Assembly (NCBI GenBank): GCA_029260495.1
Contig: JAJDDD010000021.1
Location: forward strand, 1-64,000
Source: Phycisphaerales bacterium
GTDB lineage: Bacteria; Planctomycetota; Phycisphaerae; Phycisphaerales; UBA1924
Reading direction: 5' to 3'
DNA: 64,000 nt
The notes under the pieces were generated by a model. That model worked only from the letters and a program-made list of their open reading frames with translations. It was not told the DNA's origin and made no database searches. Every line of letters starts with the position of its first letter. The stretch's first letter is position 1. Positions 14,461 to 27,602 of this stretch are shown in pieces. The position numbers and the translations under genes were made by a program.

Positions 14461-14973
14461 TTAGCGAATTACAAACCAAAAGCACCGTAGACGCTTCGAC
14501 TCAAAGTTCACCACTTGCCCGATCATCTCGTCGGGGCTGATCGCGCCGTAAGATTTTTCAAAAGAGTAGCGCGAAGCCCGAGTCGATTCTCGCTCGCAGC
14601 AAAGCACCATGTGCCGGCCGTCGATCGGGTTGTGCTTGCACTCGTGCAGCTTCTGGATGTTCTTCCAGAACTCACCCTCGTTCTTCGAGCCAGCTGATCC
14701 CTTCCAGTTGCCAGGGCGCCCGTCAAGATCAAACGTGCGCCGTAGCACATAGAACTTAAACTCAATCAAGTGGTTCTTGCCGTCAACCTGGACCAGCAGG
14801 TCATACTTCTTCCACTCTGCTTGCAGCTGTGCATCGGGCCGCTGTGCAACAATTGACGCCATCATGAACGCACGAAAGGTGAACTCGTCGATATTGACGA
14901 GCTCGATCTCATCGGCGTGCGCTTCGAGGCGCGCAAGACTATCTCCGATCGCAGCGTGCAGCCATTCGATCAT
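14461..14973 (-). CDS. Unknown protein with PD-(D/E)XK nuclease-like motif
   Basis: This 170-residue protein matches no family I can name. Residues 56-75 (KKYDLLVQVDGKNHLIEFKF) fit the catalytic core of the PD-(D/E)XK nuclease fold: D58 on a first strand, a hairpin turn, then E71-F-K73 on the next strand. An upstream helix contains E29/E30, which could supply the fourth residue. The length allows one such domain. It stands alone between convergent S9 peptidase and cytochrome genes, with no methyltransferase or helicase nearby. Its 5' end has a TAGGGT box six bases before ATG and no ribosome-binding site. Nuclease activity is an inference from the motif. Confidence 0.5.
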   Translation of the reverse strand: MIEWLHAAIGDSLARLEAHADEIELVNIDEFTFRAFMMASIVAQRPDAQLQAEWKKYDLLVQVDGKNHLIEFKFYVLRRTFDLDGRPGNWKGSAGSKNEGEFWKNIQKLHECKHNPIDGRHMVLCCERESTRASRYSFEKSYGAISPDEMIGQVVNFESKRLRCFWFVIR

Positions 14974-14979
14974 TGTTAC

Positions 14980-14985
14980 ACCCTA
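14980..14985 (-). promoter_or_regulatory. -10-like box TAGGGT six bases before ATG
   Basis: On the minus strand TAGGGT, GTAACA, ATG (14973). Part of the recurrent start-proximal series. Confidence 0.35.
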
Positions 14986-15024
14986 CCGTTTGCACTACAT
15001 CCCATGCCCAAGAACCAGATCAAA

Positions 15025-16926
15025 TCAAGGTGAATCGCCTCCCGGCGTCAAAGGAAGCAGCAAATCGTCCCCGGGATTCGCGTCGGTCTTCTCTGGGGCA
15101 GCGCTCGGTTTCAGCGGTGCGCCGGTGCGAAGCCGCGTCATCGGGCGCTCGCTGTGGTAGTTATGACATCCCAGGCAGTTCATCGCGACTTTAGTAGGAG
15201 TGTGACACGCGGCGCAATCTGTCTGGCTCATCGGGGCTATTGCGCTGTTGAAGACATTCGGATCAAACTGCGCGTAGGCCAACTCGAAATCCCGCGGTTG
15301 GGTCTCAATAGCATGGCACTGCAAACACCCATCGTCGTCGAGCAGGGGCAGATGCGGCGCGTGGTTGAACCGGGTCAACCCGCTGATCGTATCCTGCGGC
15401 TGTCGGGCGCGCCAGTTGACTTTCATTGAACCATGGCTGGTCTGATCGACGCTGTGACACCGGAAGCATTGCCCGACGGCGTCGGGCTTTTTGAGCGCAT
15501 GAAGAACAGGTCCGCCCGGCGTCGGCCACGTCGCTGCGAGATCTGCCCAAGCCCGCAGGAAGGCGTCGCCATGCCCTGCAGGGCGGTAGCGCAGGGCGAA
15601 CGCCATATCGTCGCGGTACCAGCCGCCCTGCGAGGCCCACTCCTGCCCGCTGGCGTCCACCTCATCGAAGGACGCATCCTCGAGCGCATCGGTCGACGGA
15701 TCATCCCCAGCAGCATGCCTGGCGAGCTCGTCTTCGAGATCGGGAAGCCAGGCTTCGATGGATTCACGCATGAGCGGACGCGAAAGCCCGCCAGCCAGAT
15801 GCGAGGAAAGCGTAACTTCTGTGTCAGCGCCGACAGCGACAGTCGTGCGCCACAGAAGCGCCGCATGCCCATCACGCGCCAGTTCCCACGCCAGCGCCTT
15901 GATCGCCCAGATGATGCGCCCCACCGCAACAAGCTGCTCATCGGTCGCATCCTGCAGGTCATGGAGATCGAGCGAATCCGCGATCCGCAGATCGCTGCGC
16001 AGCGTTGGATCGCCGCCGAGCATGAGGCGCATGAATGGCGTGATCTCTCCCTCCGCGATCCCTGAATCAGCCGGCCACTGTCCGATGCCAATCCCCGCAT
16101 CGTCGATCGCGATCGTGTCGATCGCTGGGAGTGTGAAGAACTGGACGCCCGAGCCGGCTGACCGCTGCGAGGCATGAACGTCGTTGTCGTGGCATTGTGC
16201 GCACCCCTGCGCGAACGACGCTGTCATCATGAACTTGCCTGTCGCATCAGTGTGATGGCAATCGGTGCAGGAGGCGGGCGCCTGCCCCTGCTCACCGGCT
16301 GGGAAGTAGTTGTAAATGTGTGAAGCGTGATCGAATGCGATGCGTAGCCGCCGCCGGTAGGGGTAGCTGTCAAACTCGGGGTGACCCTTGTGGAAGCTGT
16401 CGAACTGGATCGAGTGACAGGACTGGCACTGTGCGTCGGTCATCGCTGTCAGATCATTCCAGCGCCCACCGTGCTCCACGTGGCAAACGGCGCAGGCAAA
16501 CTCACCCTCCTTGGAATGCGGCGGGTTGAACCCGCTGGCGCTGGCGATCGCTGACAAAGCGGGGTGGTCAATGATTCGCTGAGTGCGCTCTTCAATCGCG
16601 GCCGGACTCATTGCGTGTGACTGGAGCGCATGTTCACCAAGATCATGGCAATCGAGACACCGCCCGCTGTCGCGAAGGCTCAACTCCGAGTTCACGATCC
16701 CGTGAAGGACGCCTTTGGTCGAATCCATGTCGGCGCTGTGGCAGTTGGCGCAGTCATTCGTGAGCAGCGCGTGTTGAACAGCAAGCGGGCCCGGAATCGC
16801 GACCTTCGGCCCCAGCGAAGTGTTCATCACAACCGACGCGACGATCACAGTGATTACAACCGCAACAACAGCCGCGACAAAGACGATGGCCGTCAGGCGC
16901 GCTGTTGTCGGAGTCTGCTGGTCCAA
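15025..16926 (-). CDS. Membrane-anchored decaheme cytochrome c
   Basis: The frame is open to 17166, but the upstream part is the shadow of the preceding gene. TTG at 16926, seven bases after that gene's stop, gives a 633-residue protein starting MDQQTPTTARL with one membrane anchor (about 12-35). Ten CXXCH heme sites follow: CANCH, CLDCH, CAVCH, CQSCH, CTDCH and CAQCH in the first third, and CFRCH, CLQCH, CAACH and CLGCH near the end. A heme-free segment of about 250 residues separates the two clusters. The protein would face the periplasm and carry electrons over a long range. It is the last gene of the minus-strand cytochrome cluster. No enzyme motif was recognised. Confidence 0.82.
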   Translation of the reverse strand: MDQQTPTTARLTAIVFVAAVVAVVITVIVASVVMNTSLGPKVAIPGPLAVQHALLTNDCANCHSADMDSTKGVLHGIVNSELSLRDSGRCLDCHDLGEHALQSHAMSPAAIEERTQRIIDHPALSAIASASGFNPPHSKEGEFACAVCHVEHGGRWNDLTAMTDAQCQSCHSIQFDSFHKGHPEFDSYPYRRRLRIAFDHASHIYNYFPAGEQGQAPASCTDCHHTDATGKFMMTASFAQGCAQCHDNDVHASQRSAGSGVQFFTLPAIDTIAIDDAGIGIGQWPADSGIAEGEITPFMRLMLGGDPTLRSDLRIADSLDLHDLQDATDEQLVAVGRIIWAIKALAWELARDGHAALLWRTTVAVGADTEVTLSSHLAGGLSRPLMRESIEAWLPDLEDELARHAAGDDPSTDALEDASFDEVDASGQEWASQGGWYRDDMAFALRYRPAGHGDAFLRAWADLAATWPTPGGPVLHALKKPDAVGQCFRCHSVDQTSHGSMKVNWRARQPQDTISGLTRFNHAPHLPLLDDDGCLQCHAIETQPRDFELAYAQFDPNVFNSAIAPMSQTDCAACHTPTKVAMNCLGCHNYHSERPMTRLRTGAPLKPSAAPEKTDANPGDDLLLPLTPGGDSP

Positions 16927-16933
16927 GAGTCGG

Positions 16934-17755
16934 CTACTTTCCGAGCATGACGTGCGCGAGCAGGCCGTGAGCGTGCGCGATCGTGCCGTGCATCGCTCCG
17001 AGCGCAAGCAGGCAGGCGACGCAAGGCATGTGCACGAGCAGCCAACGCCTGACCGCCCGATCGCCCGCGCGAAGCGCATCGAGACGGTCCTTCTCGATCG
17101 CGAGAGAGGAGAGTGTTTCGAGCGCGTTTGTTTCGGCGTTTTTCGCGTTCGCCTTAAGCGCCTCAAGATTCCGCAGGGTCCGCGCCAAATCGTTGCTCCA
17201 GAGCATTCGCCGCCAGAGCCGGGCCTGCCGATTGAACGATTCTCTGATCCCGCTCAACAACTCCGCATGGCCGGCGCCGAGTTGATCGATCGCCGTCCCA
17301 GCCCTCTGACTAAGTTCAGTATGGGCGCGAGCGTGCTCTGTGTCCGGCGTGTCTCCGGTACAAGCGATTGAGCCCGTGCGCAGTTGTGACCACAACGCAA
17401 CCCCAATCGCGCCGGTTCCAGCGACCACGAGGAACAATCCGGTGAGAACCCCGTCGAGCCATCCGTTAGGACGCGCGAACTCGACGTGCATTAGAAAAAG
17501 GGAAACAATCGCGACTGCGAACGTTGTCTGCTGGCCCACCCATCGCTCTGGGTTCGTCCCCGCGCGAAGTCGGAAGAATCGCCGCACAAACGCCGCCACC
17601 AGCGCAGCAAAGAGCACCCAACCCGTCACAAAGCAGGTGCGATGCAGCGAGTTCGAGCACGCGACGTAAACACACCCCAGCGCAATCACCAGCGCCAGCG
17701 CAAGGAACACGCCGCCTATTGCTCCGCCTCGGAATCTCTTCAACACATCACGCAT
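16934..17755 (-). CDS. His-rich membrane protein of the cytochrome cluster
   Basis: This 273-residue protein has five predicted membrane helices (about 12-32, 40-58, 78-95, 103-122 and 237-262) and a soluble, partly coiled-coil loop at about 125-230. Histidines lie in or near helices (MHVEF, LLVHMPC) and cluster at the end (MHGTIAHAHGLLAHV), as in proteins that bind b-type heme. ATG at 17755 follows the tetraheme gene's stop by 13 bases. It sits between two cytochrome c genes, 7 bases upstream of the decaheme gene. A role as quinol-linked membrane anchor is inferred from context; no known family was recognised. Confidence 0.6.
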   Translation of the reverse strand: MRDVLKRFRGGAIGGVFLALALVIALGCVYVACSNSLHRTCFVTGWVLFAALVAAFVRRFFRLRAGTNPERWVGQQTTFAVAIVSLFLMHVEFARPNGWLDGVLTGLFLVVAGTGAIGVALWSQLRTGSIACTGDTPDTEHARAHTELSQRAGTAIDQLGAGHAELLSGIRESFNRQARLWRRMLWSNDLARTLRNLEALKANAKNAETNALETLSSLAIEKDRLDALRAGDRAVRRWLLVHMPCVACLLALGAMHGTIAHAHGLLAHVMLGK

Positions 17756-17768
17756 TGCAAAATAATAG

Positions 17769-18797
17769 TTACTGCCCTTCCCGTGTTCGGGACGCCGGGA
17801 TAAGGGGATCAAGCTGAGCAGCGTCGGCGCCAATTTGGTTTTCCGCGATCAACATACCAATCTCCCGCACATGCTCAATCGCCTCCGCAGCCACCGCCGC
17901 TCCTTCGACGCCGCGACCGATCTCGATCAACTGCGACACCGCGTCAATATCCACAACTTCATCAATCGCGCCCAAGTTTGCAACCGCGTTTGTGATCGCA
18001 TCGGTCGGTGCGCCATCGGTAACCGCACGGCAGGCGTATTCCAGCCGCAGCGCCGCGCCGACGAGGAACATCACGCGCACACGCTCGGGAGCTGATCGAG
18101 GATTTTCATCGGACCCCGCACGAACGAAGTTGTGCCGAATGTCTCCCTGCGTCCATGATGCAAACTCAAACTGCTCCCCGTTCGGATGGCCAGCCGTCTG
18201 GATCAGTTCCTGGTCCGCAATCGAGTGACAGGAGTAGCACGCCGCCCCCAACTCATACAGCCGGGCCGGCCTGATCATCCCCAATGAGTCGCAGTTCGAA
18301 AGACGTGCAGTGCGGTGCAGTAGTGTTTCATCATCGGCGGTCGCGGCATTGTGGCCGAACCGCGAATGTGGCTCCACCCAACTCGCTGCTGCACTGTGGC
18401 ATGACTCACAAGACACCCCGCTGATTGACTTCGGACGCTTGTCTTCAATTTTCTGAATAGTGAAGTGACATGTGGCGCATCGTTCGTCCGTTTTGATCCG
18501 TCGGACTCCAATCGCAGCAGCGATGCGTTTGGCCTCAGCATTGCGCGTCAGCGTTTGCGCGCTCGTCCGATGCGCCGTTCCCATCCAGACCTGATGCTCA
18601 TTCTCATGGCACTCTGCGCAGGCGTCCGGGCCAACAACCTGGGCTGGATCACGATTGATCAAGTCCTGACCCAACAACACTGGCGTCGCCAGACGATCGG
18701 CATAGGTGATCGAGGAGGCCAGCCCAGTGCGAAGCACCACGGCGCCCACCGACAGGCCAAACAGCCAAAGCACTGCCATAACACGAGTTCTGCACAT
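17769..18797 (-). CDS. Tetraheme cytochrome c (c554-like)
   Basis: This 342-residue secreted cytochrome has a signal sequence (MCRTRVMAVLWLFGLSVGA). Four CXXCH motifs follow: CAECH in DACAECHENEHQVWMGTAH, CATCH, CESCH and CYSCH. The first motif with its trailing W-x-G-T-A-H is typical of the cytochrome c554/multiheme superfamily. The C-terminal third has no hemes. The start at 18797 is supported by AGGAGA 11 bases upstream; the frame extends to 18875 without signals. It is followed by the membrane-protein gene. The function is probably periplasmic electron shuttling within this cluster. Confidence 0.83.
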   Translation of the reverse strand: MCRTRVMAVLWLFGLSVGAVVLRTGLASSITYADRLATPVLLGQDLINRDPAQVVGPDACAECHENEHQVWMGTAHRTSAQTLTRNAEAKRIAAAIGVRRIKTDERCATCHFTIQKIEDKRPKSISGVSCESCHSAAASWVEPHSRFGHNAATADDETLLHRTARLSNCDSLGMIRPARLYELGAACYSCHSIADQELIQTAGHPNGEQFEFASWTQGDIRHNFVRAGSDENPRSAPERVRVMFLVGAALRLEYACRAVTDGAPTDAITNAVANLGAIDEVVDIDAVSQLIEIGRGVEGAAVAAEAIEHVREIGMLIAENQIGADAAQLDPLIPASRTREGQ

Positions 18798-18899
18798 CTC
18801 TGGCCCGATCTCCTGTGACTGAAACAAACGCTCTCTCACCACATACAAGAATAGCACATCGACTCGGACGACCACCCCACAAATATCGATCTGAGTAAT

Positions 18900-18929
18900 G
18901 GCGAAAGGGATCAGTCCGACCCGTTCGCC
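18900..18929. terminator. Hairpin between barrel and tetraheme genes
   Basis: GGCGAA (18900-18905) pairs with TTCGCC (18924-18929), with an inner GGG/CCC pairing. There is no T tract. It lies in the only sizeable gap (175 bases) of the cytochrome cluster and may attenuate or protect the transcript. Confidence 0.3.
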
Positions 18930-18972
18930 CTAATTATCATCAATGATCGAAGTGTTATAGGACAACGATTGG

Positions 18973-20424
18973 TCAGAACTTAATTAGCCACTCGACCCGG
19001 ACGCCCGACGCCGGCTCGCGGTCCTCCTGACCCGTAAGAAACGCATCCAAACGCAGGATATTATTCTGCCCAATCGCTGTTTCAAACCGGGCCGCGATGG
19101 CGATCGCGCTCTCGTCAGTGTCGTTGGTGTCAGACCTGAATCCCGCCTCAACAACAATCTGGCTGCGCTTTTCGTTGAAAAAATGCTGATACCCCAGCGC
19201 AGCGCCGACAGCGCTCTGCGCATCGTTGCCCAGCGCGGCGCCATAACGACCCAGCCCCACCGCTGCGAACAAGAGCCCCGTCCGGCCCAGCGGTCCCCCG
19301 GTGTCCGGCCCCCTGGCCGCTGATGAAAACTCATCCACTGCCCAGAACCCGTTGCAATACAAGATGTCCTCAGAATGCGCCGGCGTATACGAAAGTTCTG
19401 CGAACAATAACTCACCCTGGCCGACCGCCGGCGATTCCTCGTTCAGTGGAATCGATGTCAGCGCACGGAATGACGTATTGATTTTCCCGATGCGCTGAAT
19501 CGCGCTTCCCGCGAAAAAGAGACCGTCGGAGTTGTCCGCCCGGCTGTCATCGTCATAAATAAAGACCGCATCGAAGTTGAACGTGCTCATGCTGGTGTCA
19601 GCTTCAGCGAAGAAACCGAACAGTTGAGCGTTGTGATCCTCGATGTTGTTCCCGCGGTTGATCTCGTTCCATCCGTAGAGAAACGTCACCTGAAGATTAT
19701 TAATCCCATCGAGGAAGATGTTGTTCTTCGTAATCCCAACCGCGTCAACTCGGTCGTTAATCAGCAGCCCCTCCTGGTAAAAAAGCGGCTGGCGCCCTAC
19801 AGAAAATCCGATGTCGAGTTGTCCCGTGTCCTTCGGATCGAGCCCTGGAAAGATTTGACCAAAATCGCCCTCGAAGAACAGATGGGTAATCCTCGTATTA
19901 AACTCGTCGTCCCCGCCGGACTGCTCCGCGCCATCGGGCTCGATGAAGTAGCCGGTGAACCGCCTGCCATCGTCGAGCGGACGTACACCGACAAGCAGGC
20001 GTTCGGTCCCGGAGAGTTGCAGATTCCCGAAAATGTCCAGCCGATTCACCCATTCAGTGAAGGTCTCTTCACCGTCGTTGAATGTCTGCAACGCCGATCG
20101 ATACTCACCGAATACCAAAAGCGACGGCTGCCACAACGCGCCGGTCGGAATGGTAAATCCCCTGCCGATCGGCCCCGGCCCCAGAAACGGATCACCCAAC
20201 TCAAGAATCGGGCTCGGACGATCAGGAACATCCTCCAACCTCATCGGCGCAGGCTCATCAGAAAAAGTTGTCTTCAGTTCGTGCGGGTCATCGTGATGAT
20301 CCCCAGCTTCGTGATACTCATCCTGCGCGATCGCGCGCTGACTACAACACAAGAACACAGCGCCGAAGACGACCCACCAAAGAGCTGTTGATCGGATAAA
20401 GCCGGTTGTCATGGCGGTATTCAT
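18973..20424 (-). CDS. Outer-membrane beta-barrel protein of the cytochrome cluster
   Basis: This 483-residue protein has a signal peptide (STALWWVVFGAVFLCCSQ then RAIAQ), a His/Asp-rich linker (DEYHEAGDHHDDPHE) and many alternating amphipathic strands. It ends in a terminal Phe (VRVEWLIKF), the hallmark of barrels inserted by BamA. It starts 7 bases after the pentaheme gene's stop. It resembles porin-like proteins encoded with multiheme cytochromes, where the barrel can sheath a cytochrome through the outer membrane, but no direct homology to MtrB could be established by eye. A simple porin is the alternative. Confidence 0.75.
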   Translation of the reverse strand: MNTAMTTGFIRSTALWWVVFGAVFLCCSQRAIAQDEYHEAGDHHDDPHELKTTFSDEPAPMRLEDVPDRPSPILELGDPFLGPGPIGRGFTIPTGALWQPSLLVFGEYRSALQTFNDGEETFTEWVNRLDIFGNLQLSGTERLLVGVRPLDDGRRFTGYFIEPDGAEQSGGDDEFNTRITHLFFEGDFGQIFPGLDPKDTGQLDIGFSVGRQPLFYQEGLLINDRVDAVGITKNNIFLDGINNLQVTFLYGWNEINRGNNIEDHNAQLFGFFAEADTSMSTFNFDAVFIYDDDSRADNSDGLFFAGSAIQRIGKINTSFRALTSIPLNEESPAVGQGELLFAELSYTPAHSEDILYCNGFWAVDEFSSAARGPDTGGPLGRTGLLFAAVGLGRYGAALGNDAQSAVGAALGYQHFFNEKRSQIVVEAGFRSDTNDTDESAIAIAARFETAIGQNNILRLDAFLTGQEDREPASGVRVEWLIKF

Positions 20425-20431
20425 CGTCGGG

Positions 20432-22366
20432 TCAGTCCGTGCCGTCCTTTGTCTTGCGCTCTCCCTGCGCCTTGACACCGAACTCAACCTTCGCCTTGTA
20501 AAGCGTGATGAACCCCTTTCCAACGCCCTTGACGACCTGTAGCGGGCTCATGTTCAGGTCGAAGCCAACTTCCTGAATGTCACGGATTAGGTTCGCCGGC
20601 GCCATGCCCGCTTTCAGTTCGATCGTCGCGGTGTACGGACCCGATCCTGTCAGCAGGTCGCCATCGACTGTGTATGTCGCCCAGCGCGAACCCAGCGGCT
20701 CGATGCCCTTGCGATGCTTGCGCGCGCCCGCGGGGCGCCCCAAAAGTATGTTCGAGCGCGTCGCAGGGCGAACAAACGGCAGCGCATCAGTGGAGTAGTT
20801 CACCGAGACAATCTGCTCGCGGTCGCCCCCACGGAGATTGCGTGTAATGAACTTCGATTGCAGGTTGAAAAGCTGGTCATCAAGCGGGAGCAGCCCGTCG
20901 TGGACAAACTCTGAATGCAAATTGCGCAGGTCAAAGTTCGGATCGAAGTCGCCGGACTCGAAGACGGTGTTCCCGTTGGCATCGGCGACTACTACATGCA
21001 GCCACACCAACCGCTCCGCATCGAACCCACTCGGCGCTGCGTGCCCATCGGTCGCATTCTTCACTTCAACCTTGAAACGTATTCCATCGTCGTCCGCTCG
21101 CTCCGTGACGATATCTCCAAAATGGTAGCCGTTGCGAAGAACGATCGCGCGCTGCTCCATGCCCCATTCGAGCAACTCCAGGTTCGCGTCGATGATCTCA
21201 CGCGCCTCGTAGCGATCGTCGATGGAGCTCCACCGCTCGGGAAATGAATCCTCATCATGGTCCTCGTCCTCGAACTCGTCCGTGCCCCATCCAGCTTCCC
21301 AGTCAAACTGCGTCCACTCGCTGATCGTCGCCAGCTCCTGCGCATCGGGATTGTGAGGGAAGATCCCCGGATGAACGATGGAGTGATCAGGCCCAGCCCA
21401 GTTGTGAATCGCATGCTTGCGCGTCTTCGTTGGGACGCCCCCCACCACCGCAGCCGGACCCTCAGCGTACCCCGCATTCACGCCCTGATTGACACTCATA
21501 TGGCAGTCCTGGCAACTGACGCCGTTGGCCGCCGCCGGCGATCGCTTGTAGTGCGAAAAAAGCTCCTCCAAGCGGAATCCATTGACAAACGTCACATCGT
21601 GGCACGAGCCACAAAAACCGGGCTCCGTCAAACGAAAGAACTGCTTCGATTCAGTGTGGATTTTTCTGCCCGGAACGCCTGGCTCGGTGACAACGCGGTA
21701 GCGATCCGGCGACGCGAGCACTTCAGCCAGAATCTCGTTGCCCCGCGGACCGTAAATCGGCTGAAGGATGTCACCTTCGACAATCGCGATGCGCCCGCTC
21801 ACCTTCCCGTAGCTTTGATCGACACGATGGCACACGATGCAGGTGATCCCCTCGCGCGAAACTTGAGCGCGATCCTCAAGCGGCGCAAAGAGCGGCTCAT
21901 TCAGGATCATCCCAACCTGCGTATGGCAGCGGATGCAAAAATCTCCAAACGTCCCATTGGTGCGCTTCAGCATCGTTCCGTGCAGCGCCGTAAAGACCGG
22001 ACTCACCATCGCATACGCATGCTGCGAAACGGACCACTCCTTGTAATGCTGCGGATGGCACGTCTTGCATGTGTTGGCAGAAGGGAAACGGTCCTCAATG
22101 AACAACTGCTCATGCGCCAACGCCGCAGCAGCAGCCACCACTTCATCCGGATCGTCGCCGGCCCGCTCGCCCTGAACGGCGTCACCCGCGGCTCCCCAGA
22201 ACACTGGAGTCAGGATTGGCGCCTGCATGCCATGGTGCGCCGGCTTCAGGTTTGCTGAAAACGCAGTCAGGATCGCTGTCAAGACAAGCAGCGCCATGAC
22301 CAGCAACCCAAGGTAAAACCGGGTGGCGACAGCGGCGATACCAACGGGCTTCAAAAAAATCCGCAT
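20432..22366 (-). CDS. Pentaheme cytochrome c with C-terminal beta domain
   Basis: This 644-residue protein has an N-terminal membrane helix (about 13-36; possibly an uncleaved signal anchor). Five CXXCH motifs follow in the first half: CKTCH in SANTCKTCHPQHYKEW, CIRCH, CIVCH, CGSCH and CQDCH. The first motif matches the c554/hydroxylamine-oxidoreductase superfamily. The second half (about 350-620) is heme-free and strand-rich. Its ATG follows GGGGGAGAG, a strong ribosome-binding site, and a good promoter lies upstream. It is the first gene of the cluster. Substrate unknown. Confidence 0.83.
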   Translation of the reverse strand: MRIFLKPVGIAAVATRFYLGLLVMALLVLTAILTAFSANLKPAHHGMQAPILTPVFWGAAGDAVQGERAGDDPDEVVAAAAALAHEQLFIEDRFPSANTCKTCHPQHYKEWSVSQHAYAMVSPVFTALHGTMLKRTNGTFGDFCIRCHTQVGMILNEPLFAPLEDRAQVSREGITCIVCHRVDQSYGKVSGRIAIVEGDILQPIYGPRGNEILAEVLASPDRYRVVTEPGVPGRKIHTESKQFFRLTEPGFCGSCHDVTFVNGFRLEELFSHYKRSPAAANGVSCQDCHMSVNQGVNAGYAEGPAAVVGGVPTKTRKHAIHNWAGPDHSIVHPGIFPHNPDAQELATISEWTQFDWEAGWGTDEFEDEDHDEDSFPERWSSIDDRYEAREIIDANLELLEWGMEQRAIVLRNGYHFGDIVTERADDDGIRFKVEVKNATDGHAAPSGFDAERLVWLHVVVADANGNTVFESGDFDPNFDLRNLHSEFVHDGLLPLDDQLFNLQSKFITRNLRGGDREQIVSVNYSTDALPFVRPATRSNILLGRPAGARKHRKGIEPLGSRWATYTVDGDLLTGSGPYTATIELKAGMAPANLIRDIQEVGFDLNMSPLQVVKGVGKGFITLYKAKVEFGVKAQGERKTKDGTD

Positions 22367-22416
22367 AAACTCTCCCCCACGACGGGGACAAAAACAATGC
22401 CTGACGGGTCGGCTTC

Positions 22417-22446
22417 TATTTAGGATGACACACTCCTATATGTCAA
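22417..22446 (-). promoter_or_regulatory. Sigma70-type promoter of the cytochrome cluster
   Basis: On the minus strand a perfect TTGACA (22446-22441) is followed after 18 bases by TAAATA (22422-22417), about 50 bases before the pentaheme start codon. It is the best conventional promoter in the window. Confidence 0.6.
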
Positions 22447-22643
22447 GCCCCAAATGCTATCAGCCCTCCGTATCGGCGATTTTCAAGAACACACTGAGGG
22501 TTTTCGGGCGTCATCTCGGCTTATTTTCCGAAACTGGAATCTGTGTAATTACAACATGCAACGTTGAGTAACCGAGACGAGCAGTCTCTCTACTTGCCCC
22601 GGGGGCCGCCGGGCGCGCTCCAATCTTCCAAGTCCCCTTGCCC

Positions 22644-23501
22644 CTACGCAGCGACCGTCTCGCGGGAGCCTTGCTCAATGCCTGCCCACTCGTAAAGCCG
22701 CATCGCCGCGGCGCCGAGAACGTCATCCGCCTCCGCAATCTCCGGCCGCCAGAGCTTGTCCCATTCGAACGTCACCCAGCCGCCAAAGCTGCAATGCGCC
22801 AGCGCTTTGATGAAATCACAAACGGGAAGCTCGCCATCGCCGAGTTGAGCGGGCGCCCCGTCGCGCACATCCTTCACCCGCGCCATGAACAGATTGGCGC
22901 CGATCGCCTCAAGCGCCGCCGCAGGATCATCTCCCGCCCCAACGCCGACAGCCAGGTTGTAGCACACGCCAAGGAGTGGTGAATCAATCGTTGAGACGAT
23001 CTCCACCGCCTGCGCTGCAGTCGCGAAGTCTCCACCGTTCTCCAGTGCGATCCTCACACCTGTATTCCGCGCATCATCGACAACCAGCCGAAGTCTGTCG
23101 ATGATCCGCCGTGTCGCGCTTTTGTGACTCTCCCCGTAAGGCACGCCAAAACCAAAGACACGCACAATCGAGCCGCCGACGCGCCGGCACAGGTCCGCAT
23201 CGCGCTTCGCTGCCCGTACAGATTTCTCATAGTCCCCAATCACGCGCCCGATGACAGGCGGGACAATCGGCTCATCAAAGCTTACGCCCGATCCAATGCC
23301 CGCGACCAATACCCCTGCATCTGCAAAGAGTGCTCGCGCCTTCGCAGGGTCGCTCAAAGCGGGGTCGCAGGCGATCTTCGCGCCACCTGAGCCGAACGTC
23401 CGCAACTCGACGCCGTCGTATCCATATTCATCCGCAGCGCGAGCGACCCGCTCAAGCGTCCACTGTGGCGCCGCGACCGTTGAGAAAGCTGTTCTAAACA
23501 T
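22644..23501 (-). CDS. Sugar phosphate isomerase/epimerase family TIM-barrel protein
   Basis: This 285-residue protein is of the xylose isomerase-like TIM-barrel family (IolE/hydroxypyruvate isomerase type). Visible family features are YGYDGVELRTFG near the N-terminus, ALENGGDFAT with the metal-ligand Glu, the GVCYNLAVGVG segment and the late FEWDKLW with another metal-binding Glu. Such enzymes interconvert keto- and aldo-sugars or inositol derivatives. It follows the fmdB-like gene by 74 bases but has its own TACCAT box 7 bases before ATG. The substrate is unknown. Confidence 0.8.
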   Translation of the reverse strand: MFRTAFSTVAAPQWTLERVARAADEYGYDGVELRTFGSGGAKIACDPALSDPAKARALFADAGVLVAGIGSGVSFDEPIVPPVIGRVIGDYEKSVRAAKRDADLCRRVGGSIVRVFGFGVPYGESHKSATRRIIDRLRLVVDDARNTGVRIALENGGDFATAAQAVEIVSTIDSPLLGVCYNLAVGVGAGDDPAAALEAIGANLFMARVKDVRDGAPAQLGDGELPVCDFIKALAHCSFGGWVTFEWDKLWRPEIAEADDVLGAAAMRLYEWAGIEQGSRETVAA

Positions 23502-23575: not shown

Positions 23576-23947
23576 TCACGCTTTTTTCGCGCAGCCGCAC
23601 GATGACCCGCACGACGCCTTGGCGCTGGATGAGCTTGATGAACCGTCGCCGTCGCCGCCCGTGCTCTTCCCGGCGCCCTTGCCCTCTTTCTTCTTCGTGC
23701 CCGACGAGTCATCCTTCTTCTCTGTGGACTTCTTCTCCGCCTCGGCGCCCTTCTTGTAAGACTCCGAGCGATAGTCCGTCTCGTAAAAGCCCGAACCCTT
23801 AAAGATGACGGCGGCGCCTGTGCCAATTAGCCGTTTCAGCGTCAGCTTCCCGCACTCGGGACATTTGCGCTTCGGATTCTCCGTCATCGACTGGAACAGC
23901 TCAAACACATGCTCACAGCTCTCACATTGGTAGTCGTAGGTCGGCAT
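23576..23947 (-). CDS. FmdB-family zinc ribbon protein
   Basis: This 123-residue protein starts MPTYDYQCESCEHVFELFQS and continues with KCPECGK, the two CXXC knuckles of the FmdB regulatory zinc ribbon. The first 65 residues are conserved. The remainder is a low-complexity tail (Lys/Glu, then Gly/Ser) ending KASCGSSCGCAKKA, a possible metal-binding motif. The start at 23947 is the family start; the frame is open 17 codons further. It lies 47 bases after grpE on the same strand. The role is unknown; the family is often near chaperone genes. Confidence 0.85.
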   Translation of the reverse strand: MPTYDYQCESCEHVFELFQSMTENPKRKCPECGKLTLKRLIGTGAAVIFKGSGFYETDYRSESYKKGAEAEKKSTEKKDDSSGTKKKEGKGAGKSTGGDGDGSSSSSSAKASCGSSCGCAKKA

Positions 23948-23994
23948 GAACTTGACACTCCTGGAAATGGATCGCGCATGAGAAGCGCGATGAC

Positions 23995-24642
23995 TCACAG
24001 ATCACCAGCGACGCCTTCATCAGGACCATCAGCGGTCTCGATTGCATCACTTTGCTCGTCCTCGTCGGAGTAGCGAGCAACGTGAACCTTCGCCGGCCGC
24101 AACACATGCTCGCCGTGCGAATACCCCGGCTGAAGCAACGCCGCGACGTGGCCAGGCTTCAGATCGCCATCAGGCTCGACCTGCTCGACAGCCTCATGGC
24201 GCATCGCGTTAAATTCTTCGTTCACCAAAGGCGAAATGAGCACTGCCCCATGCTTCTCAATCGCCCGGCGCAACTCATCACGGATCAGCTTCACCCCCGC
24301 CAAAATTTGCTCCGCTGAAGCGCTGTCTGCGTTCTGCTTTAACGCCATGTCAAAGTAATCGAGCACAAGAATCACCGATCGCAGCACCTCCGCCTCGCCG
24401 CGCCGATGGGCAGATCGCTCGTTTTCAATCGACCGCCGTTGATAGTTCCGAAAGTCCGCCAGCGCCCGCTGATATTTTTCGAAAAGCTCATCGCGCTCCC
24501 GCATTGCGCACAGCAACTCATCTTCTTCTTCGATAACGTGTTCGGAAACGGGCTCAGCGTCGGCCGGCAATTCAACATGGCCCGCCGCCTCGGCTTCAAT
24601 ATCGACTTCTTGACTCTTGTTGTGGCGTGTCTTTCGCGTCAT
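23995..24642 (-). CDS. grpE: GrpE nucleotide exchange factor
   Basis: GrpE releases ADP from DnaK during the chaperone cycle. The 215-residue protein has an acidic disordered N-terminus, a long coiled-coil helix (RDELFEKYQRALADFRNYQR, about residues 50-69), the conserved ALKQ/ILAGVKLI segment, and the C-terminal beta wing with QPGYSHGEHVLRPAKVHVA. It lies directly after dnaJ (33-base gap). No dnaK gene is in the window. Confidence 0.93.
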   Translation of the reverse strand: MTRKTRHNKSQEVDIEAEAAGHVELPADAEPVSEHVIEEEDELLCAMRERDELFEKYQRALADFRNYQRRSIENERSAHRRGEAEVLRSVILVLDYFDMALKQNADSASAEQILAGVKLIRDELRRAIEKHGAVLISPLVNEEFNAMRHEAVEQVEPDGDLKPGHVAALLQPGYSHGEHVLRPAKVHVARYSDEDEQSDAIETADGPDEGVAGDL

Positions 24643-24675
24643 AACTTCTCTGCTGATTACCTTCTCACAATGCCC

Positions 24676-25830
24676 TTATGCGCCGAATGTTTTTTTCAAT
24701 TTCTCTAGAAAACCATGGCTCTCTGGGTTCACCGCGACATCCTCCGTTTCTGCAAACTCTCTCAGCAGCTTCTCCTGCTTGCTGTTGAGCTTCTTCGGAG
24801 TCTCGATCTTGAGCGCGACGATAAGATCACCTCGCCGCCCCGTGCGCAAATTCGGCAGGCCCTCCCCGCCGACTCGCTGCAGATCACCATACTGCGCCCC
24901 CTTGGAAATGCGCAAACTATGAGGCCCTTCCAGCGTCGGCGCCTGAATGTCAACTCCCAGCGCCGCCTGCGTGAAGCTGATCGGCATCTCCAGGACAAGA
25001 TGATCGCCATCGCGATGGAAAAACTCGTGCTCCTGCACGCGAATCACCACATGCAGATCGCCTCGCACACCAGCGCCGTCCGGCGAAATTTCCGGTTGCG
25101 GCGGCTCGCCCTCACCGCGCACGCGCACCGCCTGCCCGTCATGCACGCCCGGCGGCGTCTTCACAGTCAAGCTGCGCTTGCGCGGCACGCGCCCCTTGCC
25201 CTTGCAATCTTGGCACGGATCTTCAATGCGCCGCCCGCGCCCGCCGCACCGCGGACACGCCGTCGCAATGCGGAACATTCCGCCGAGCCCCTGCTGCATA
25301 ACCTTTCCCTGCCCGCTGCAAGTTTCGCAGACGATCGGACCTGAGCCAGGCTTCGCGCCAGAACCCGTGCAGGTCTCGCACACATCAAGGCGTGTGAACT
25401 CAACATCAACTTCCGTCCCGCTCAGCACATCTTCCAAATCAATAACAACCTGTGTTTCAAGGTCATACCCGCGAGGCACACCCCGCGGGCGCCGCCCTCC
25501 GCCCCGGCGCGCTCCTCCGCCGGTGAAAATATCGTTGAACATCGAGAAAATATCCTCGACATCCATGCGTGAAAAATCATGCCCCGCCGGCCCGCCGCGT
25601 GAGCGCAGACCCTCATGTCCAAACTGGTTATACACCTGGCGCTTGCTCTCATCCGAGAGAACCTCATACGCCTCGGCCGCCTCCTTGAACTTGACCTCAG
25701 CCTCCGAGTCGCCCGGATTGCGATCCGGATGATGCTTCATCGCCAACCGGCGATACGCGCGCTTGATCTCATCGCCGTCTGCTGTGCGTTCGACGCTGAG
25801 CACTTCGTAATAGTCACGTGTCGTGGGCAT
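24676..25830 (-). CDS. dnaJ: Chaperone DnaJ
   Basis: The full-length type I Hsp40 of 384 residues has a J domain (1-70) with the HPD tripeptide in [10 protein letters not shown], a Gly/Phe region ([13 protein letters not shown]), and a zinc domain with four CXXCXGXG repeats ([32 protein letters not shown]). The C-terminal substrate-binding domain has [10 protein letters not shown]. It delivers clients to DnaK and stimulates its ATPase. It is upstream of grpE in the same transcript and downstream of the second groEL. Confidence 0.96.
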
Positions 25831-25988
25831 ATTCTGCAGAAGCTCGCTTCGGTCCGCTCACAATCAATCGGAAACAATCCAGTATTCACCTTCAATAATG
25901 AAGCCCGCGCCGCTTCCGACGCGAGCCTCTGTTGTGTGCTCAAAGGCGTCCAGCTGCCTCTGGGGCAGCTTGAACAGCCAATTATGTT

Positions 25989-27602
25989 CTACGAAACCGC
26001 GCCCGTCTCCGCCTCCGTGTCATCCTTCAACTCAGCGACGAGCACATTCGTCGTCAGCATGAGCCCCGCGACCGACGCAGCATTGATGAGCGCCGTCTTC
26101 ACGACCAACGCCGGATCAATGATCCCCGCCTTCACCAGATCAACATACTCATGCGTCGCAGCATTAAACCCTTCATTCGTCGACATTTCCCGAACGCGCT
26201 CGACGATCAAATCGCCATCAGCCCCAGCGTTGTTCGCAATTTGCAGCAGTGGCGCCTCAACAGCGCGATACACAATGTCAAACCCAAACTTCTCATCATT
26301 CGAAGCATTCTTCTGCGCCGATTCAATCGCATCCTGCGTGCGCACCAGCGCCACACCGCCGCCTGGCACATAGCCTTCCTGCGCCGCCGCCCGGGTCGCA
26401 TGCAAAGCATCGTCCACGCGGTCTTTGCGCTCCTTCATCTCGATTTCAGTCGCAGCGCCTACCTTGATAATCGCCACGCCGCCCGTCAGCTTCGCCAGCC
26501 GCTCCTGCAGCTTCTCGCGGTCATATTCACTTGTCGAGCGCTCATGCTGGGTCCGGATCTGATCCGCCCGCGCGGTGATGTCCTTCTTCTTCCCGGCGCC
26601 TTCGATGACCGTCGTGTCATCCTTCGTAATCACAATCTTCTTGGCGCTGCCCATCTCGGAAAGCTCGATCGATTCCAGCGTCCTGCCAAGGTCTTCACTG
26701 AAGAACGTCCCGCCCGTCACTGTCGCGATATCGCCAAGCAGCGCCTTGCGCCGATCTCCAAAGCCAGGCGCCTTCACCGCCGCGATTTTCAGCACGCCGC
26801 GCAGGCGATTCACAACCAGCGCCGCCAGTGCTTCAGACTCAACGTCTTCAGCGATAATCAACAGCGAACGCCCCGAACTCGCCACCTTATTAAGCAGTGG
26901 CAGGAAGTCTGCGAGATTTGCAATCTTCTTCTCGTGAATCAGCACAATCGCATCTTCAAGAACACACTCCGCGTTGTTCGGATCCGTCATGAAGTACGGC
27001 GACAAGTATCCCTTGTCGAACTGCATCCCGTCGACGTAATCAAGCGTCGTCTCCGCAGTCTTGCCCTCTTCAACCTCGATCACACCGTCCGGCCCGACCT
27101 TCGCGATCGCCTCGGCCAGGAACCCGCCGATCTCAGCATCATGATTCGCGCTCACCGTCGCAATCTTGCGGTAATCCTCTTTGCCCTTGCACTGCGTCGC
27201 CATTTTGTCGATCGCTTCAGCAGCAGCCTCAGCAGCGGCGTTAATACCGCGCTGCAGCTCCACCGGGTTGGCGCCGGCCGTCACATGCCGCAAGCCTTCA
27301 ACGAAAATCGCCTCAGCCAAGACTGTCGCTGCTGTCGTGCCGTCACCAGCCTTGTCGTTCGTCTTCTTGGCGACTTCATTCACCATCTTCGCGCCCATGT
27401 TCTCGAAGGGCTCCTCCAGCGAAACCTCTTTCGAAACCGAAACGCCATCTTTCGTGACCATCGGCCCGCCGAACGATTTCTGAATGACTGCGTGCCGACC
27501 AGTCGGCCCCATCGTCACCTTCACTGCCCGAGCAAGCCGCTCGACGCCCTGCTTCATCTCTAGAAGCGCTGAGTCGCGGAACATCATCTGTTTCGTAGCC
27601 AT
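25989..27602 (-). CDS. groL: Chaperonin GroEL, second copy without GGM tail
   Basis: This 537-residue Hsp60 has the canonical equatorial motifs [15 protein letters not shown] and [11 protein letters not shown], the apical domain with [20 protein letters not shown], and the C-terminal [19 protein letters not shown]. The last residues are TEAETGAVS, not the Gly-Gly-Met repeats normal for the main cellular GroEL. It is downstream of groES. In organisms with two groELs the tail-less copy often handles special clients; that is inference here. It lies 111 bases after groES and 158 before dnaJ. Confidence 0.95.

Follow-up and report, generated by a model that had tools for sequence, protein, structure and literature searches.

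A five-gene porin and cytochrome cluster of a Phycisphaerales bacterium that may be a reduced form of PCC4

A cluster of five genes, here called A to E, lies in the window of this study, a stretch of 64,000 nucleotides of DNA from a Phycisphaerales bacterium (GenBank assembly GCA_029260495.1, contig JAJDDD010000021.1, positions 1 to 64,000 of the forward strand). The genes encode a pentaheme cytochrome, an outer-membrane beta-barrel, a tetraheme cytochrome, a five-helix membrane protein and a membrane-anchored decaheme cytochrome. We consider it somewhat probable that they are an envelope electron conduit derived from the porin-cytochrome system PCC4, minus its cytoplasmic half. Two genes present in most related loci (F and N), the predicted heme ligand on the cytoplasmic side of D and a Cys-rich stretch of E are jointly absent, and all 19 c-heme motifs are kept. 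An NAD(P)H arm therefore appears to have been lost and the envelope part retained.

Results

The cluster has the composition of PCC4

PCC4 consists of a porin, 4-, 5- and 10-heme periplasmic cytochromes and a five-helix inner-membrane protein (He et al. 2017, PMC5566968; here and below, excerpts of the cited papers are meant). The membrane protein carries two WX3HX13H motifs, on the third and fifth transmembrane (TM) helices, and SGXXG on TM4. The tetraheme gene is preceded by a redox gene and, in Subgroup II, the membrane-protein gene by an Fe-S gene with PF13247; Subgroup I, which is Hyphomicrobium, has distinct gene directions and is without the Fe-S gene (PMC5566968). Compared with this published description, the window cluster likewise has a porin, 4-, 5- and 10-heme cytochromes and a five-helix membrane protein in which an HX13H and a near-SGXXG motif occur. 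It differs in having neither the redox gene nor the Fe-S gene, and in D, where the first WX3HX13H motif reads WX3QX13H. A sequence-only reading of the window had suggested that the gene set may be an undescribed electron route; as the same composition was published in 2017 as PCC4, that suggestion falls. The reduced form itself had no earlier report in the literature searched, and a combined search for decaheme, cyclic nucleotide-binding and ferredoxin gave no match.

The five open reading frames (ORFs) run in tandem on the minus strand from 22366 to 15025, with intergenic gaps of 10, 175, 13 and 7 bp. Together they hold 19 (A 5, C 4, E 10; none in B or D) of the 25 CxxCH motifs in the window by six-frame count. 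The single minus-strand cluster, its 19 heme sites, the pentaheme, c554-like tetraheme and anchored decaheme cytochromes, the barrel ending in Phe and the His-rich five-helix membrane protein (10 His in 273 residues) of the sequence-only reading were thus borne out.

Related loci usually carry two further genes

Related loci were taken as the best 80 of 112 stretches related to A in a scan of public genomes. Their gene content was read from hidden Markov model searches of all ORFs of at least 60 codons, with bit-score thresholds set by eye. A was present in 80 loci, B in 73, C in 51, D in 44, E in 44, F in 36 and N in 38. A and B occurred together in 73 of the 80; C, D and E occurred together in 42, which span 11 phyla as named in the record titles. 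Many of the 38 loci without the full C, D and E set end at contig edges and are uninformative on absence. Among these 42 loci, N was recognised in 33 and F in 30, and the only one with neither (L033) belongs to G158, the genome of the window's nearest relative. F has FAD-binding, NAD-binding and 2Fe-2S domains and an N-terminal hydrophobic stretch. N combines cyclic-nucleotide-binding domains with several 4Fe-4S motifs, including PF13247.

The commonest complete layout is A-B-F-C-N-D-E (12 loci), and layouts like it agree with the published Subgroup II of PCC4. Hyphomicrobium-type loci, with E-D-C-F facing A-B, a low-scoring F (47-61 bits) and no recognised N, agree with Subgroup I (PMC5566968). 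Only A and B were seen in 21 of the 80 loci, some of them cut by contig ends. The A-B-C-D-E order is repeated in G158, and conserved order extends far beyond Phycisphaerae. A chance cluster or isolated oddity was rejected, as related loci are widespread and the five-gene form occurs twice.

In L039, L048, L049, L050, L051, L053 and L084, and in the cut loci L040 and L052, all of Acidobacteriota-, Gemmatimonadota- or Bacteroidota-type, C is larger (7-8 hemes, 635-931 aa), N scores lower and no F was recognised where the locus continues; these are possibly a further PCC4-like subgroup. At L073:13128-19300, an A-B pair lies next to a divergent N and two proteins, one with 17 CxxCH motifs and the other with 15.

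The reduced form recurs in a second genus

G158 belongs to another genus of the same family and has the same A-B-C-D-E form as the window. A sequence search of the window's genome gave no match to N, and for F only a weak partial match (27% over about 145 residues) with no convincing ortholog; G158 gave only weak partial matches to F or N. As a control, the N query recovered strong orthologs in five of eight genomes (G050, G086, G015, G010 and G025); a sixth, G082, holds a more distant one. The F query recovered the known F of G086 and G257. Fuller forms occur in the same family: A-B-F-C-N-D-E in G086 (pieced from two contigs), A-B-F-C-N-D1-E1-D2-E2 in G050 (two contigs), in which the second E is without the Cys-rich stretch, and A-B-F-C-D-E on one contig in G257, which has no N ortholog elsewhere in its genome. 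In G010, two tandem A-B pairs were seen (L119:8947-16474), with F-C-N-D-E on another contig (L144). A search of 163 family genomes with window D gave matches in six; the match in G268 is weak, and no module gene was recognised near it.

Neither the window cluster nor that of G158 has lost a heme motif. The ratios of nonsynonymous to synonymous change between them (pN/pS) are 0.18 for A, 0.19 for B, 0.38 for C, 0.30 for D and 0.42 for E, rough values with synonymous sites near saturation, and all five genes are under purifying selection. In the G158 locus (L115), gene A carries a single in-frame TAG (L115:2145-4079), a sequencing error or a real break. The neighbours of A and of E differ between the window and L115 when compared by eye, which suggests that the conserved stretch reaches no further than these two genes.

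One predicted heme ligand of D is changed

The model of D has five long helices, the last two separated by a helical insert (mean predicted local distance difference test score, pLDDT, 86.7). Four positions in window D, Q76, H90, H242 and H256, correspond to the predicted b-heme ligands, which form two pairs on two TM helices, with 13 residues between the members of each pair. Both His pairs, as in a di-heme cytochrome b (FRD/b561-like), are complete in 41 of 43 D sequences. Positions 90, 242 and 256 are His in 43/43; position 76 is His in 41/43 and Gln only in the window and L115, which thus keep three of the four His. The mean number of Lys and Arg per loop across the D family is 3.1, 0.9, 2.3, 0.5, 16.9 and 0.3. 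By the positive-inside rule, the N-terminus, position 76 and H242 would face the cytoplasm, and H90 and H256 the periplasm.

The WX3HX13H motif of TM5 is intact in window D, and the motif of TM3 is WX3QX13H in both the window and L115. The SGXXG region of TM4 reads TGAIG in the window and SGAIG in L115, and both Gly are kept in 43/43 D sequences. At the C-terminal end of D, the window and G158 agree at 57 of 58 positions. Cytochrome b561 (PF01292) was found in 4 of 32 D-family members and DUF4405 in 5 of 32, neither of them in window D. The sequence-only reading had recognised no family for this protein; that holds for Pfam, but the family had already been described by its motifs (PMC5566968). 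Fumarate-reductase cytochrome b chains matched the D model at Z 7.6, a score that helical models reach as background, and a D profile searched against Protein Data Bank (PDB) sequences gave nothing useful.

Trees place D and E of the window beside a second D-E pair

Trees were built from rows hand-picked for spread (29 of 43 D, 29 of 51 E, 18 C and 21 B). Window D groups with the second D of G050 (support 98/96) and window E with its second E (89/97), in trees that both have long branches and, for E, odd composition. B of the window falls with G050 and G086 (99/95). The second D of G050 keeps His76 and has Ala for Trp238. Forcing window D into the first-pair clade was worse by 10.9 log units (approximately unbiased, AU, test, p 0.045); constraining it with the first D of G050 alone gave AU p 0.057. 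The stem of the window and G158 is 2.1 long for C, 1.71 for D, 0.87 for E and 0.45 for B, which looks as if the inner parts had been remodelled.

No known complete reductase was recognised in the cytochromes

A has an N-terminal hydrophobic signal or anchor, five CxxCH in residues 100-289 and a long non-heme C-terminal part, about 129 residues per heme overall. In Pfam, Cytochrome_C554 (PF13435) scored over cut-off in both A and C (E-value 4.2e-13 for C), and E scored over the cut-offs of Paired_CXXCH_1, Cytochrome_C7, Cytochrom_c3_2 and Cytochrom_CIII. Cytochrome_C554 was the sole Pfam or NCBIfam model above cut-off for A, which was recognised as no known enzyme. A complete known reductase was rejected, with no nitrite, tetrathionate or hydroxylamine model over cut-off in A, C or E. 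An E profile searched against PDB sequences gave nothing useful.

A profile of 26 A-family members matched the pentaheme cytochrome c552 of Thermochromatium tepidum (5ze8) over residues 42-269 of 435 (E-value 5.7e-16). The ExtKL model NF040886 was matched at E-value 1e-5 or better by 26/26 A-family members (best 1.7e-12); window A scored 43 bits, below the cut-off of 250, and part of A was the only match to this model in the window's genome. Elsewhere in that genome are two further 5-heme proteins (G000:C8:100125-100571 and G000:C20:328912-329637), whose similarity to A is weak and partial (32% and 27%). In the order, 96 of 201 genomes gave a match to A, of whatever strength.

An N-terminal, predicted cytoplasmic Cys-rich stretch, ahead of the membrane helix of E, was counted in 28 of 51 E sequences, by a pattern that scored L071 as lacking it though a variant is visible, and it is absent in the window and L115. 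Hyphomicrobium-type and Acidobacteriota-type E members are also without it, so its absence alone is not special.

The barrel is porin-like in fold and matches no Pfam family

The AlphaFold2 model of B (mean pLDDT 86) is a barrel of about 18-19 strands by our own count. It is closest to OprD/Occ and AlgE porins (best Z 27.9, root-mean-square deviation 2.9, 322 residues aligned, 8% identity), and OprD/Occ, AlgE and chitoporin folds match it at Z 22.7-27.9. At E-value 0.01, no Pfam family, including OprD, alginate-export and MtrB/PioB, was found in any of the 46 B members; the best match of window B was DUF7840 (E-value 0.071, far below cut-off). A B profile searched against PDB sequences gave nothing useful. 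No MtrB-type chain was named among the best 50 fold matches listed, which excludes nothing. The MtrB barrel sheathes the cytochrome MtrA and is wider than the roughly 18 strands predicted for B. The predicted fold of B argues against an arrangement copied from MtrAB, and a substrate porin would be possible. The sequence-only reading named a barrel matching ordinary sugar or phosphate porins as refuting it; the predicted fold comes near to that, although no Pfam family matches.

Coordinates and surroundings

Table 1. Features of the cluster, in positions of the window
Feature	Position	Strand	Basis
A, pentaheme cytochrome, 644 aa	20432..22366	minus	five CxxCH
B, outer-membrane beta-barrel, 482 aa, C-terminal Phe	18973..20421	minus	predicted structure
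C, tetraheme cytochrome c554-type, 342 aa	17769..18797	minus	4 CxxCH and PF13435
D, probable five-helix inner-membrane protein (PCC4 IMP-like), 273 aa	16934..17755	minus	predicted structure and motifs
E, membrane-anchored decaheme cytochrome, 633 aa, TTG start	15025..16926	minus	10 CxxCH
Gln76 codon of D	17528..17530	minus	His in 41/43 homologs; differs only in window and L115

The start of E was placed at the TTG near 16926 rather than at the ORF start, 17166, because the upstream part of the ORF overlaps D in another frame and because the E frame in L115 closes just upstream of the equivalent point. The consensus promoter proposed earlier was rejected: a TTGACA does start at 22446, but a promoter scan lists no sigma-70-like site there, and the one such site found in 14950-22700, against 2.4 expected from shuffles, is located elsewhere. 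Upstream, the minus-strand genes of 23576-27602 are presumably of chaperone type (FmdB-like, GrpE, DnaJ and GroEL).

Discussion

In the full form of PCC4, electrons would pass from NAD(P)H to F, to N, to the cytoplasm-side heme and then the periplasm-side heme of D, and on through E and C to A and B. D would be a cytochrome b with two hemes held by four conserved His, E an anchored 10-heme cytochrome, C a 4-heme shuttle, A a 5-heme cytochrome that may dock on B, and B the barrel. In the reduced form of the window and G158, exchange would take place at the periplasmic face, with quinol or quinone, via the remaining H90/H256 heme of D; other periplasmic carriers may instead be the electron partners of the conduit. 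From there, electrons would be passed through E and C to A and B. The chain proposed in the sequence-only reading, from membrane protein to anchored cytochrome to shuttle to barrel, is still the best reading in outline and its gene order is conserved, but the set is a reduced form, and the full module has F and N.

An NAD-type flavoprotein in the full form would fit electron export better than uphill uptake, contrary to the published iron-oxidation model. The window's genome has two heme-copper oxidase matches, so either direction of electron flow is possible. A bolder version is, in our judgement, rather unlikely as a whole: full PCC4 would export electrons, driven by NAD(P)H and gated by cyclic nucleotides, with the build of a ferric reductase or NADPH oxidase, and would not be an iron oxidase; the window's lineage would have duplicated the D-E pair, dropped the NAD(P)H arm and reassembled the conduit around a one-heme D fed at the periplasmic face. 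The likeness would lie in a flavoprotein, an Fe-S relay, two b hemes across the membrane and c hemes to the outer membrane.

Several observations weigh against a conduit cut back in this way. Single losses are common among the 42 loci with C, D and E, with no recognised F in 12 and no recognised N in 9, and 23 of the 51 E sequences (one of them, L057, a fragment) are without the Cys-rich segment. Both reduced-form genomes are drafts, of 22 and about 260 contigs. Descent of D from a second D-E pair is suggestive, not firm, and the C tree, which has an extreme branch in row L037, places the window and G158 no further than their own pair. Window D matches no Pfam family even at E-value 1, and in fold comparison its model matches only generic helical bundles; heme binding by D, predicted from its conserved His, is thus without precedent in a solved structure or curated family. 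A heme site could also survive with one His fewer, since Gln or another ligand could serve. The predicted B is OprD/AlgE-like, of about 18 strands and narrower than MtrB, which makes a cytochrome inside the barrel doubtful.

Other conduits resemble the cluster in part. ExtKL/ExtI of Geobacter sulfurreducens also places a pentaheme cytochrome beside an outer-membrane barrel (PMC6148476). The window cluster differs from the published account in having no rhodanese lipoprotein or ExtJ, in its inner-membrane partners and in A, which is one uninterrupted frame. A 2025 paper proposes a pentaheme family that includes ExtKL (PHC/ExtKL), whose small members are structurally homologous to T. tepidum c552, a protein with no clear role assigned in its text (PMC11976967). 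A shares the five CxxCH of that family and falls well short of the ExtKL cut-off, and unlike c552 (5ze8) it continues beyond the matched region into a large non-heme C-terminal part. MtrCAB, MtoAB and PioAB share the barrel gene next to a multiheme cytochrome gene; in contrast to them, no such decaheme model scores over cut-off in the cluster, and B is Pfam-negative with about 18-19 strands.

It is possible, though we hold it the less probable course, that the cluster performs ordinary PCC4 function, with electrons from an extracellular donor such as Fe(II) passing through the porin complex, periplasmic cytochromes and membrane protein to the quinone pool, and that the lost genes were accessory. 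He et al. hypothesised such a flow, with two b hemes, from extracellular donor to quinone pool (PMC5566968), and the two heme-copper oxidase matches would suit it. The nearest relative is the metagenome-assembled genome (MAG) OFTM206, and six other matches bear OFTM names. OFTM numbers label MAGs from the Oslofjord tunnel in a paper on iron- and manganese-oxidising biofilms, OFTM206 itself not being among those in its excerpts (PMC10732223). Against it, the lost genes are present in most of the loci with C, D and E (N in 33, F in 30 of 42), and the flavoprotein of the full modules would fit export better. No functional test of PCC4 was found in the literature searched by name, a scope that leaves out most subscription papers. 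We are similarly doubtful of a view with no extracellular conduit at all, in which B would be a substrate-selective porin letting in a soluble compound and A would act in the periplasm as a redox enzyme, receiving its electrons from E, D and C. The fold matches of B suit this view, as does A, whose residues per heme are unlike a wire and whose profile resembles c552. The cluster also encodes no separate surface-exposed-looking cytochrome, as is likewise said of PCC4 (PMC5566968). Still, A is recognised as no known enzyme, the fold is common to barrels as large as B, and B has no match among the Pfam porin families. The loci with A and B alone are compatible with either a conduit or a porin-enzyme pair.

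A decaying PCC4 remnant or an assembly artefact is very improbable and was largely rejected. Genes are missing, a ligand is lost, A of G158 carries its in-frame TAG, and the clusters are sporadic (window D in six of 163 family genomes). Against this, two genomes of different genera have the same five-gene form with every heme motif intact, the end of D is almost unchanged between them, and pN/pS is 0.18-0.42, near saturation of synonymous sites as noted. Our preferred reading is still the PCC4-derived envelope conduit.

PCC4 is a little-studied, widespread system. The 2017 text names Proteobacteria and Planctomycetes (PMC5566968), and the 42 loci with C, D and E extend the module to 11 phyla. 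Set side by side, the full and reduced forms suggest a unit made up of F, N, the Cys-rich segment of E and the cytoplasm-side heme ligand, all missing in the window and G158, where the periplasmic and outer-membrane parts stay under selection. If this is true, PCC4 would fall into two portions, one supplying electrons on the cytoplasmic side and one conducting them through the envelope, and the reduced form would be a naturally occurring mutant in which to ask from where PCC4 draws its electrons or to where it passes them.

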